Of a stretch of 53,682 nt of DNA, positions 10,779-17,563 are shown piece after piece. The DNA is from Phycisphaerales bacterium (GTDB lineage: Bacteria; Planctomycetota; Phycisphaerae; Phycisphaerales; UBA1924). The notes beneath the pieces are model-generated. The model did not search any database. It was not told the DNA's origin and was given only the letters and a program-made list of their open reading frames with translations. The number at the start of each line of letters is the position of its first letter. The stretch's first letter is position 1. The position numbers and the translations under genes are program-made. The stretch is taken from assembly GCA_007693765.1 (NCBI GenBank), contig RECZ01000077.1:1-53682 (forward strand). Direction: 5' to 3'.

Positions 10779-10955
10779 GCTGTTCATCCTCACTCTGACG
10801 ACGACCCGCCCGCACGGTTCCGCGGCGATCGCCCGGACGCGCCGGGCTGCGCCCCACGCCCTACCATCGACTCCGCGGCCCTCCCGTATCCACCCCGGGG
10901 GCCCCGAACCCGATCTCCGCACCCCAGCGCCACGCCGCGTCAGGACCAACGCCCC

Positions 10956-12116
10956 ATGCCCATGACCAAAGACGACGTCCTCCGAGCCCTCACGAGCGTG
11001 CAAGACCCCGAGTTGCGGCGCGATCTCGTCGCTCTCGGCGCCGTCAAGAAGGCCGCGGCGTGCGACGGGCACGTCGGCGTCACCCTCGCCCTCCCCAGCC
11101 GCGACCGCGCCACGCTCAAGCAACTCCGCGACGACGCCGAGATCGCCATCCGCGCCGCCGCGTCGCGCATGGGCGAAACCCTCAAAGCCGTGCAGATCGA
11201 CATCGAAGGCGCCCCCGCCCCCGCCCCCGGAAGCAACCCCGCCGGTGACGCCAAGCCGGCGGCGCCGCAGGCCCGGGCTGATCAGCAGGGCACGCCGCAG
11301 GAAAACGCCAGCGGCGTCCCCGGCGTGGCCCACGTCATCGCCGTCGGCGCCGGCAAGGGCGGCGTGGGCAAGTCCACTGTTTCGGTGAACCTCGCCGTCG
11401 CCCTGGCGCGCACGGGCAAGGCCGTGGGCCTCATGGACGGCGACATCTACGGCCCCAGCGTCCCCACGCTCATGGGCCTCGACGAGTTCGACGCCCAGAC
11501 CGTCGGCTCGATGCTGCAGCCGTTCAACGTCCACGGCGTCAAGACGATGACCATCGGCAAGCTCGTCGACCCCGAGAAGCCCCTCATCTGGCGCGGCCCC
11601 ATGGCCCACGGCGCCTTCAAGCAACTCGTCCAGCAGACCCAGTGGGGCGAACTCGACTACCTCATCATCGACCTGCCCCCCGGCACCGGCGACGTGCCCC
11701 TCACCATGGCCCAGCTGCTGCGCCTCACCGGCGCCGTGATCGTCTGCACGCCACAGAAGGTGGCGCAGGACGACGCGGTGCGCGCCCTGCGCATGTTCCA
11801 GCAACTCGGCGTGGACGTGCTGGGCGTCGTCGAGAACATGTCGTACTTCATCGGCGACGACGGCAAGGAGTACGACCTCTTCGGGCGCGGCGGCGCCGAG
11901 CAGATGGCCCAGCGACTCGGCGCCCCCTTCCTCGGCGCCGTGCCCATCTCCATGGACCTGCGCAAGAACTCCGACAGCGGCGAGCCCATCAAGAACTTCG
12001 AGGGCGACCCCCGCCTGCGCGACGCGCTGGAAGCCCTGTCGCGCCAACTCGAGAACCAGGTCGCCCTCGCCGGCATGCGCAACGAACACGCCCGCCCCTC
12101 GCTGACGATCCACTGA
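10956..12116 (+). CDS. mrp: Mrp/NBP35-family P-loop ATPase without the CxxC motif
   Basis: A 386-residue Mrp protein. An N-terminal MIP18/FSCA-like domain (about 1-85) is joined by a Pro/Ala-rich linker to the deviant P-loop GAGKGGVGKS (about 131-140), followed by DGDIYGPSVP, DLPPGTGDV and VVENMSYF. Family members insert Fe-S clusters into target proteins. Most carry a Cys-x-x-Cys pair just after the ENMSYF block that holds a bridging cluster between subunits; here the segment is FIGDDGKEYDLFG and has no cysteine. The ATPase fold is intact, so a different cluster site or an Fe-S-independent role is possible. The ATG at 10956 has AGGA 10 bases upstream. Confidence 0.93.
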   Translation: MPMTKDDVLRALTSVQDPELRRDLVALGAVKKAAACDGHVGVTLALPSRDRATLKQLRDDAEIAIRAAASRMGETLKAVQIDIEGAPAPAPGSNPAGDAKPAAPQARADQQGTPQENASGVPGVAHVIAVGAGKGGVGKSTVSVNLAVALARTGKAVGLMDGDIYGPSVPTLMGLDEFDAQTVGSMLQPFNVHGVKTMTIGKLVDPEKPLIWRGPMAHGAFKQLVQQTQWGELDYLIIDLPPGTGDVPLTMAQLLRLTGAVIVCTPQKVAQDDAVRALRMFQQLGVDVLGVVENMSYFIGDDGKEYDLFGRGGAEQMAQRLGAPFLGAVPISMDLRKNSDSGEPIKNFEGDPRLRDALEALSRQLENQVALAGMRNEHARPSLTIH

Positions 12117-12152
12117 ACGCGGAGCACCCGGGACGCCGCTGCGCATAATTGT

Positions 12153-12240
12153 GTGTGCCGTGGTCTCGGCGCAGCCGTGACCACGCGTTGCATCGCCGCA
12201 CGCGCAAGACGTGGCGACGCTGCGCGACGCCACGGCACAC
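12153..12240. repeat. 88-base structured repeat, copy 1
   Basis: Starts GTGTGCCGTGG and ends CCACGGCACAC, so its ends are inverted repeats of each other. Inside are two hairpins: TGGTC-T-CGGC / GCCG-T-GACCA near the left end, and GTGGCG / CGCCAC near the right. Copy 2 lies 22 bases downstream in the same orientation. Confidence 0.85.
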
Positions 12241-12262
12241 GGCCGTGGCATGCCAGGTCTTT

Positions 12263-12350
12263 GTGTGCCGCGGCCTCGGCGAAGCCGTGGCCACGCGTTG
12301 CATCCACGCACACGCAGGACGTGGCGACGCTGCGCGACGCCACGGCACAC
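12263..12350. repeat. 88-base structured repeat, copy 2
   Basis: Same length and layout as copy 1 and identical over the last 30 bases or so. In the left hairpin, copy 1 has GGTC paired with GACC while copy 2 has GGCC paired with GGCC, so the differences keep the base pairing. This suggests the RNA or cruciform structure has been selected. Confidence 0.85.
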
Positions 12351-12393
12351 ACGGCCATGTCGCTCTGGAGAACGACAGACAAGTCTCGCGCAC

Positions 12394-12496
12394 CCGTGCC
12401 ACCGACTTGCACAGCAAGTCGGTGCTCCCGACTTCCGGCTGCATGCAGTCTCGCGCAGCGGGAGACACCGACTTCGTGCCGAAGTCGGTGGCACGG
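12394..12496. repeat. Composite palindromic repeat, copy 2 (next to rmuC)
   Basis: The left unit has stem CACCGACTTGC / GCAAGTCGGTG (12400-12410, 12414-12424) with an ACA loop, preceded by CCGTGC. The right unit has stem CACCGACTTCG / CGAAGTCGGTG (12466-12476, 12480-12490) with a TGC loop, followed by GCACGG. Between them CTCCCG (12425-12430) pairs with CGGGAG (12459-12464), so the whole can fold as a cruciform. It ends 4 bases from the rmuC stop. Confidence 0.85.
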
Positions 12497-12499
12497 GCG

Positions 12500-13861
12500 T
12501 TAGATTGTTTCGGGGTTTTCCGTGGGGCTTTCCGTCCCGGATTGCAGCGTGCGCGCTGCGCCGTCCACCTGATCCAGCGCCTTGATCGCCGTGCCCGACG
12601 ATGCGCCCTGCTCCTCGAAGCGGCGCAGCGTGGGCACGAGGCGGCTGTCGATCGAGCCCACGAGTTGGTTGTACCGCCCCAACAACTGATTGATCGACTG
12701 CCCCACGCCCGTGACGTGCCCGAACATCACCTGCGCCCGGGCGTGCAGCTCGCGCCCCAGGCCGAAGAGCTCCTGCGCGCTGTCGCTCAGGCGCTTCTCG
12801 CGCCAGCCCACCGCCACCGCCCGCATGAGGCCGATGAGCGTGGACGGGCTGGCGAGGATCACGCCCTGCTCCATCGCGACGTCCAGCAGGCGCGGCTGGC
12901 GCTGCAAGGCCGCGTCGATGAACTGATCGCCGGGGATGAACATCACCACGAACTCGTGCGCCCCGTCGAACTGCTTCCAGTAGTCCTTGCGCGACAGCGC
13001 CTGCGCCTGATCGAAGACGTGGCGCGCGAACCGCGCAAGGTGCGCCTCCTGCTCCTCGGGGTTCGCGGCGTGCATCGCGTCCAAATAGGCGTCGATGTTC
13101 GTCTTGGCGTCGATGGCGATCACCCGGTCGTTGGGCAGGCGCACGATCATGTCCGGGCGCAGCAGCCGGCCCTCGTCGTCGCGCGCCGAGGTCTGCGTGC
13201 TGAAGTCGCAGTAGTCGCGCATGCCCGCCAGCTCCACCACGCGTTCGAGCTGCACCTCGCCGTAGCGCCCCCGCACCTGCGGCTTGCGCAGCGCGTTCAC
13301 GAGCTCGCTCGTCGTGTTGCGCAGGCTCACGCTGGCCTCGTTGGTGAAGCGGAGTTGCTCCTGCAATGACGCGAACGCCTCCGCCCGGGCGCGGTCGATC
13401 TGGGTGATCTTCTCGTCCGTCTTCCTGAGCGTCTCGCCGATGGGCTTGACGAGGTCTTCGACCGCCTTCCGGCGCGCTTCGAGATCGCCCCGGGCCTTCT
13501 CCTGCTCGGTGGCGAAGGTCTGCTTGGCCAGCTTCATGAACTCCTCATTGCTCGACCGCAGCGCCCGCGAGGCCAGCGCGTCGAACGTGTCCTGGAACTG
13601 CTTCTGCAGCGTGGCCAGCCGCTCGCGCTCCTCGTGCTCGCGCCGCTCGAACGCGCCGAGCCGCTCGCGCAGGGCGATGGCCTCCTCCTGCGCCGTTCGC
13701 GCCTCACCCGCGGCCCGCTCCAGACCCGCCGCGAGACGCGCGTGCTCCTCCCCCGCCCGGGCGACGTCCCGCCGCAGCCGCGCCCGCTCCGCCCACAGCC
13801 ACGCCGCGGCCCCGAACCCCGCGACCGCGGCCAACCCGAAGACAACTGCCAGTATTTCCAT
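12500..13861 (-). CDS. rmuC: DNA recombination protein RmuC
   Basis: A 453-residue RmuC homologue. One N-terminal membrane anchor (about residues 4-24) is followed by a long charged coiled coil (about 25-170). The RmuC nuclease-like core then has PQVRGRYGEVQLERVVELAGM, the DMIVRLPNDRVIAIDAKTN block and FVMFIPGDQFIDAAL. The core resembles a PD-(D/E)xK-type fold (DAKTN). The family is thought to limit recombination between short inverted repeats, an interesting match to the palindromes beside it, though proximity alone proves nothing. The ATG at 13861 begins the membrane anchor. The gene appears monocistronic. Confidence 0.93.
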   Translation of the reverse strand: MEILAVVFGLAAVAGFGAAAWLWAERARLRRDVARAGEEHARLAAGLERAAGEARTAQEEAIALRERLGAFERREHEERERLATLQKQFQDTFDALASRALRSSNEEFMKLAKQTFATEQEKARGDLEARRKAVEDLVKPIGETLRKTDEKITQIDRARAEAFASLQEQLRFTNEASVSLRNTTSELVNALRKPQVRGRYGEVQLERVVELAGMRDYCDFSTQTSARDDEGRLLRPDMIVRLPNDRVIAIDAKTNIDAYLDAMHAANPEEQEAHLARFARHVFDQAQALSRKDYWKQFDGAHEFVVMFIPGDQFIDAALQRQPRLLDVAMEQGVILASPSTLIGLMRAVAVGWREKRLSDSAQELFGLGRELHARAQVMFGHVTGVGQSINQLLGRYNQLVGSIDSRLVPTLRRFEEQGASSGTAIKALDQVDGAARTLQSGTESPTENPETI

Positions 13862-17209: not shown

Positions 17210-17563
17210 GTCGGTCCTCCGTTCGTCGTCTCCGTTGCACGACGGCCACACCCCGTCCGATCACCGCGCCACCATGCGCGACCACGTGCATATCCCCATG
17301 CACCACCCCGTGCCACCGACTTGCCCAGCAAGTCGGTGCTCTTCTGAACCGTCTTACTTTGGAACCGTGTATTGTGCATTCGCGAGCCTACGAACGCACC
17401 GACTTGCTCCGCAAGTCGGTGGCACGGATGTGTGCACAGGCACAATCGCGGGCTCGGGCACAGGCATGGGCGCGGAGACGGCCTCGCTCGCCCTCGCACA
17501 TCCGATCTCATCTCCGAGACGAACCGACCCGAACCACCCGCACCCCATCGCCGCGAGCCGTCC
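17210..17563. other. 354-base divergent intergenic region
   Basis: Separates the minus-strand DUF1295 operon from the plus-strand DUF1475 gene. It must hold both promoters; none could be pinned down. The only structure seen is the composite palindrome at 17307-17427. Confidence 0.7.
17307..17427. repeat. Composite palindromic repeat, copy 3 (divergent promoter region)
   Basis: The left unit, preceded by CCCGTGC, has stem CACCGACTTGC / GCAAGTCGGTG (17314-17324, 17328-17338) with a CCA loop. The right unit has the same 11-bp stem (17397-17407, 17411-17421) with a TCC loop, followed by GCACGG. Unlike copies 1 and 2 it lies upstream of both flanking genes, so it cannot simply be a transcription terminator. 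Confidence 0.85.

Follow-up and report, generated by a model that had tools for sequence, protein, structure and literature searches.

The closest described systems are the REPIN/RAYT systems of E. coli, Pseudomonas and Stenotrophomonas, in which a short imperfect palindrome (the REP unit) carries an unpaired tetranucleotide foot, or tag, at its 5′ side. Published definitions, in the sections drawn on here, give this tag as GT[AG]G (PMC3686654; PMC6006769) or list GTAG with variants together with CGTC (PMC3733652); the CGTC-tagged REPs of the latter source are described in those sections as having no dedicated transposase. A class 3 of TnpA-Y1 proteins, with a Y----Q motif and the foot CnGA, is reported from Planctomycetes and Acidobacteria in the part of PMC6006769 considered here. 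According to the relevant sections of PMC8266576, the TnpA-REP of E. coli binds and cuts the tagged single strand only, requiring both the tag and a bulge in the stem, and in Marinomonas altered tag bases lead to an altered cut dinucleotide. The corresponding portion of PMC8049555 describes RAYTs as duplicating REPINs, and singlets as usually being the decaying remnants of REPINs. T-T mismatches have been described in REP-related DNA 18-mers (PMC7709200, in the part cited).

The DNA analysed here (the window) is a stretch of 53,682 nucleotides from a Phycisphaerales bacterium. It contains two 88-nt repeats in one orientation, at 12152-12239 and 12262-12349 (+ strand), separated by a 22-nt spacer and identical at 80 of 88 positions. 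As the initial annotation had proposed, they lie between an Mrp/ApbC-like gene (10917..12116, + strand) and a convergent RmuC-like gene (12500..13861, − strand); the NCBIfam E-values of these genes are 4.2e-85 and 1.8e-35, with both scores below the curated cut-offs of the models. The repeats are intergenic at this site, the one site that was compared with gene positions. The terminal inverted repeats and the two hairpins per copy described earlier were also found, the outer ends reading TGTGTGCC...GGCACA.

Each 88-nt repeat consists of an inverted pair of one unit with the feet pointing outward, that is, a head-to-head REP doublet. In copy 1, unit 1a (12155..12185, + strand) has the tag GTGC at 12155-12158 and a hairpin at 12159-12185 of the GTGGTC/GACCAC type, with a T.T mismatch and a GCA loop, and unit 1b (12210..12238, − strand) has its GTGC tag at 12238-12235 and a hairpin of the GTGGCG/CGCCAC type at 12234-12210. 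Copy 2 is built from unit 2a (12265..12295, + strand), tagged GTGC, with a hairpin of the GCGGCC/GGCCAC type, one broken pair and a GAA loop, and unit 2b (12320..12348, − strand), with a GTGC tag and the GTGGCG/CGCCAC type of hairpin. The exchange of GGTC/GACC for GGCC/GGCC between the copies, which had been put forward as preserving the pairing, is real, but copy 2 has GCGG instead of GTGG and loses one T-A pair. Since two exact 88-nt REPINs lie side by side and are 91% identical through their middles, a local duplication would explain them better than two insertions, and the window pair is most likely one REPIN that was later duplicated in tandem. The distance to the next palindrome, given before as 44 bases, is 46 nt when measured from the end of copy 2 to a GTGC foot at 12396. 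This palindrome is a head-to-head doublet of a second REP family, GTGC-CACCGACTT...AAGTCGGTG (12396..12494, no strand assigned), whose RAYT is on contig C167; another doublet of that family is present in the window at 17310-17425.

Read from its outer end, the unit begins with an unpaired GTGTGC and continues as the hairpin C-GTGGCG-T-CGC-GCA-GCG-T-CGCCAC-G, in which a T.T mismatch is conserved and of which a variant has a four-pair upper stem. When a lone unit was folded as DNA, GTGC remained unpaired directly 5′ of the stem. The unit resembles those of the GT[AG]G systems in being a short imperfect palindrome with an unpaired tetranucleotide foot on the 5′ side, and the REPs of E. coli in having an irregular stem, although the irregularity here is a single T.T mismatch and not the AA/GC bulge. 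Single units folded better than shuffled sequences (z −4.0 and −2.8), whereas the result was less clear for the whole 88 nt (z −2.4 and −1.9, with 5 and 8 of 200 shuffles folding equally well).

Forty-nine candidate units were extracted from the fetched loci, and 42 of them passed a filter that demanded a GTGCC foot, the T/T mismatch and at most one mispair; 41 were aligned, one more being omitted as an overlapping frame. The tag GTGC is present in 41 of 41 aligned units, and one further unit (C163:374) has GTGTC; given the filter, the invariance of the foot and of the mismatch is partly the product of selection. In the 37 distinct rows, the nine pairs of the helix are formed in 98.5% of the cells, and both sides had changed in 32 cells, compared with 6.8 in shuffles. 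The covariation score was 0.319, against 0.092 for shuffled alignments and at most 0.090 when the helix was slid. Changes on both sides affected five of the nine pairs, a value reached by 18 of 500 shuffles, and G-U pairs were rare (2/333 cells). In this alignment, the helix of the unit is maintained by compensatory change, the rows being related copies within one genome, so that the covariation counts are not independent events.

A BLAST search with a 92-nt stretch gave 71 matches at E ≤ 10 in the 2.9-Mb genome to which the window belongs, a figure that includes double counts caused by the palindromes. A genome-wide covariance-model search, the check suggested in the initial annotation, identified 43 units at a threshold of E ≤ 1e-5, rising to 45 at E ≤ 0.01; since 41 units had trained the model, the finds from outside the training set are those on C131, C66, C163 and C112. 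The copies are dispersed over many contigs; of the 43 strong units, 39 lie outside the contig of the window. Ten neighbouring pairs of units were found within 120 nt of each other: seven head-to-head, two direct, and a single tail-to-tail pair, which is the one between the two REPINs of the window. From foot to foot, the doublets measure 75, 81, 85, 88, 88, 99 and 118 nt. Head-to-head doublets account for 14 of the 43 units and the majority are singlets, which fits the view, expressed in the cited portion of PMC8049555, that singlets are decaying remnants of REPINs.

Among the 163 genomes of the family, the covariance model found matches at E ≤ 0.01 in four: this genome (41, with 41 candidates scored), G106 (18, best 1.3e-5), G014 (2) and G076 (1). 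Three of the 162 other genomes therefore match, all weakly, and the search of the same 163 genomes with the 92-nt DNA gave partial matches alone, in seven other genomes. Within the sampled family, the repeats are nearly confined to this genome, while the units in G106 form a related set belonging to that genome.

Other arrangements were seen around some of the units. At two loci (L030 and L045, on contigs C132 and C162), units occur in pairs several hundred bases apart whose long flanks are nearly identical, which suggests that a segment of DNA carrying a REP was duplicated locally. In eight of the 41 units, a module of about 100 nt begins some 30 nt downstream, with the inverted arms CGAAACGCGACTGT[CG]AAGGAGC (loci L015, L016, L014, L022, L012, L009 and L006; contigs C22, C14, C34, C46, C61, C77 and C95); this arm has 22 matches in the genome at ≤ 1 mismatch, several of them near contig ends. 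Six units are followed by a hairpin in the same orientation with a GTGG foot, either GTGG-CACGGGCGTCCCGCCCGTG or GTGG-GACGGGCGTCCCGCCCGTC; these hybrid arrays thereby include a third type of REP-like hairpin (L008, L017, L026 and L023; contigs C135, C159, C167 and C79).

The genome has six Y1_Tnp-like matches, five of them above the family cut-off; the one below it (Pfam Y1_Tnp 18.8, cut-off 23) is on contig C84. This gene (C84:1656-2237, with a GTG start that we chose) has intact units upstream at 1483 and 1538 (both + strand) and downstream at 2299 (− strand), as well as a footless decayed copy near 1600. With 43 units in 2.9 Mb, about 0.02 would be expected within 300 nt of such a gene, and three were observed. 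The C84 protein and that of C167 both passed the NCBIfam model of REP-associated tyrosine transposases, NF047646 (86.5 and 98.5 bits, respectively; cut-off 80). The nearest solved protein by sequence is the E. coli TnpA-REP 4er8 (E 3.3e-6 and 2.2e-7), a transposase bound to a REP hairpin, and 4er8 was also the best match (E 5.8e-9) of the fold predicted for L081, a relative 51% identical (mean pLDDT 94.5). The C167 RAYT gene is flanked by the second palindrome family, GTGC-CACCGACTTC...GAAGTCGGTG, for which 52 exact-pattern copies were counted in the genome, against none for the reversed pattern. As the C84 and C167 genes are flanked by different families, each of the two REP families is associated with a separate RAYT. 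The best matches among the RAYT relatives come mostly from metagenome assemblies of Phycisphaerales and other Planctomycetota, followed by Acidobacteria and others. Most of the 30 family RAYT loci inspected at the outset have REP-like hairpins in inverted orientation on their flanks.

The sequences themselves show the number of copies, their architecture, the compensatory change, the adjacency to a RAYT gene and the near-restriction to one genome within the family; they indicate an element that is non-autonomous and most likely owes its spread to its RAYT. We therefore conclude with considerable confidence that the repeats are REPIN-type non-autonomous elements, with at least 43 units in the genome and the C84 RAYT as partner; the architecture is very likely that of a REPIN with its RAYT, whereas the mechanism is transferred from other systems by analogy. 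Weighing against this assignment are the GTGC tag, the Y1_Tnp score of the C84 protein below the Pfam cut-off, the small share of units in head-to-head doublets and the relatedness of the rows behind the covariation counts. Head-to-head and tandem doublets, singlets, a cognate RAYT flanked by units and the near-restriction to one genome are shared with the GT[AG]G systems. In contrast, the tag here is GTGC, with GTGG in some relatives and GTAG hardly ever, and since GTGC falls outside GT[AG]G, we place the element apart from the ordinary REPIN members. The RAYT, with the motifs FWQRGGGYD and YIHLNP, does not fit neatly into the published subclasses when compared by eye with Table 1 in the part of PMC6006769 used here. 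Overlapping phyla, a non-canonical foot and high-copy hairpins beside a Y1-type gene recall class 3 TnpA-Y1 as described in that part, but GTGC and YIHLNP take the place of CnGA and Y----Q. Likewise, the CGTC-tagged REPs resemble our units in being tagged short palindromes that occur mainly as head-to-head dimers (PMC3733652, in the sections cited), and differ from them in the tag and in the presence here of a RAYT flanked by units. A predicted HuH/Y1 transposase fold and, by published analogy, subterminal hairpins and a guide tetranucleotide are shared with IS200/IS605; unlike those elements, the units lack a gene at most places, and the C84 protein obtained 13.5 bits with the IS200 model, whose cut-off is 55.

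The initial annotation had considered a small mobile unit, a structured RNA and a recombination-prone site next to rmuC. The many dispersed copies, the REPIN geometry and the units flanking a RAYT gene argue for the first of these, and the other two found no support. A structured RNA encoded between mrp and rmuC (a small RNA, a regulatory element or a terminator), with a helix that works in RNA, is very improbable. Compensatory change would be expected for an RNA helix too, and the hairpins sit between convergent gene ends; nevertheless, the same units recur at dozens of places and flank the REP transposase gene. At the gathering score, the sole Rfam match in the whole window was a tRNA elsewhere, with none in the repeats, and a scan of 12000-12600 found no sigma-70-like promoter, other promoter types being outside its scope, and no terminator-like site (a G+C-rich stem followed by a T run). 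The scarcity of G-U pairs is as compatible with DNA as with RNA. The units might secondarily influence the ends of mRNAs, an effect that has been suggested for REPs elsewhere.

A MITE, or another element with terminal inverted repeats, mobilized by a transposase of the DDE type and without relation to RAYTs, has a marginally lower probability still. The inverted outer ends, TGTGTGCC and GGCACA, and the further repeat with long inverted arms that adjoins several units are compatible with it, yet such an element does not explain why the unit is solitary in most places, conservation resides in the units and not in the whole 88 nt, with doublets varying from 75 to 118 nt, and it is the RAYT gene that the units flank. 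The E. coli RmuC was named for limiting inverted-repeat recombination, but even with an rmuC-like gene adjoining the repeats, a recombination site functionally tied to rmuC is the least credible reading, given that just four of the 43 strong units share the contig with rmuC and 39 do not.

For the REPIN-type element, folding in the cell, recognition, cleavage and movement can be envisaged from published work on E. coli, Stenotrophomonas and Marinomonas. Each unit would fold in single-stranded DNA, for instance on the lagging-strand template; the RAYT would recognize the foot, GTGC, together with the hairpin and its T.T mismatch, cut beside the unit, and then move or copy the doublet. If the guide rule of Marinomonas applies, the cut site predicted for GTGC is GC or GA, not CT. 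The base composition around 69 GTGG and 178 GTGC units revealed no clear dinucleotide by which the two tags differ, the first 3′ position being biased by the way the stem was delimited.

What appears new is the tag, mainly GTGC and less often GTGG, compared with GT[AG]G, CGTC and CnGA in the documented systems, as given in the parts of the papers cited above. The GTGC tag was not found in the REP literature searched; this search did not extend to subscription papers or to supplements such as the table of feet from 2018, and the tag may be published there. Tags of the GTGC and GTGG types are present beside the RAYTs of many Planctomycetes and some Acidobacteria. Near 30 RAYT loci, the 186 ends of 93 hairpins had GTGC 37 times, GTGG 18 and GTAG once, against 2, 0 and 0 among the 184 ends of 92 hairpins located more than 500 nt away. 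With looser hairpins at 81 loci, the counts were GTGC 92, GTGG 40 and GTAG 1 in 598 ends within 250 nt, and 27, 8 and 3 in 1130 ends beyond 600 nt. In 677 hairpins from 151 loci, which include some genomes twice because they were found in two collections, 295 stem ends had GTG immediately on their outer side, and the second most frequent trinucleotide was AAG, with 48. When up to three outer pairs were trimmed and tags beginning with GTG or GTA alone were counted, the 151 loci gave GTGC 260, GTGG 106, GTAC 11, GTGA 10, GTGT 7, GTAG 5 and GTAT 4; the census allowed one stem mismatch, a setting at which the detector missed the GTAG of the E. coli rayT control, where it was the commonest tag when two were allowed. 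RAYT-like loci outside Planctomycetes (L111, L113-L160) were mostly without a repeated tag. GTGC recurred at least twice in 3 of 16 acidobacterial loci, and in Acidobacteria the RAYT-like loci L114, L115 and L118 have repeated GTGC feet on hairpins beginning with CCC.

To relate the fourth base of the tag to the transposase, loci were labelled when they carried two or more tags, with a 75% majority for one of them (90 of 151; 50 had fewer than two tags and 11 were mixed), and removal of near-identical loci left 84 rows (62 GTGC and 22 GTGG), of which 79 were placed on a tree. The strongest column was the residue two after SCF (R30 in the C84 protein): of the 60 GTGC rows, 58 have an R there, and of the 22 GTGG rows, 3 do (Fisher p 1.5e-13, with no correction for the number of columns or for descent). 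R155 was found in 58/61 GTGC and 4/20 GTGG rows, and E66 in 57/62 and 6/22, respectively. R30 follows strand beta1, E66 is beside HuH and R155 is within NPVRRGL, so that along the sequence all three are close to HuH and to the catalytic tyrosine. A tree from which these three columns had been left out requires at least 10 changes of the tag. In seven independent pairs on supported branches, R30 went with GTGC in 6.6 on average and opposed it in 0.03 (median sign-test p 0.016); R155 and E66 went with it in 4.1 and 4.0, neither reaching 0.05, and the best of the others among the 213 position-residue traits in 3.2. The R30 rule agreed with 19 of 20 scorable single-tag loci outside the labelling, which are related by descent, and when outward, untrimmed and unanimous tags alone were used, R was present in 70/72 GTGC and 3/23 GTGG cases.

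Two stricter formulations were rejected: that R30 excludes GTGG, since R is present in 9 of 11 mixed-tag loci as well as in the 3 of 22 GTGG rows; and that there is a universal residue code, since the E. coli RayT, whose tag is GTAG, carries R, E and H at the positions corresponding to R30, E66 and R155.

These comparisons lead us to a tentative reading, which we hold at slightly less than even probability: GTGC may constitute a separate class of REP tag, widespread beside the RAYTs of Planctomycetes and some Acidobacteria, whose fourth base is read through a pocket that includes R30, E66 and R155. Under the same reservation, this pocket might read the fourth base itself or its pairing partner at the cut site, and switches between C and G at this position may have recurred together with the gain or loss of R30.

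On this explanation, there is nothing exceptional in the presence of the window's repeats between two convergent genes. The findings extend REP/RAYT systems to a tag that the published definitions of REPs exclude, and searches based on GT[AG]G would consequently overlook such families in Planctomycetes at large and in some Acidobacteria. Where the tag has switched naturally between GTGC and GTGG, sets of related transposases are available for locating the residues that set REP specificity and the cut site, which the studies in E. coli, Stenotrophomonas and Marinomonas have left partly open.
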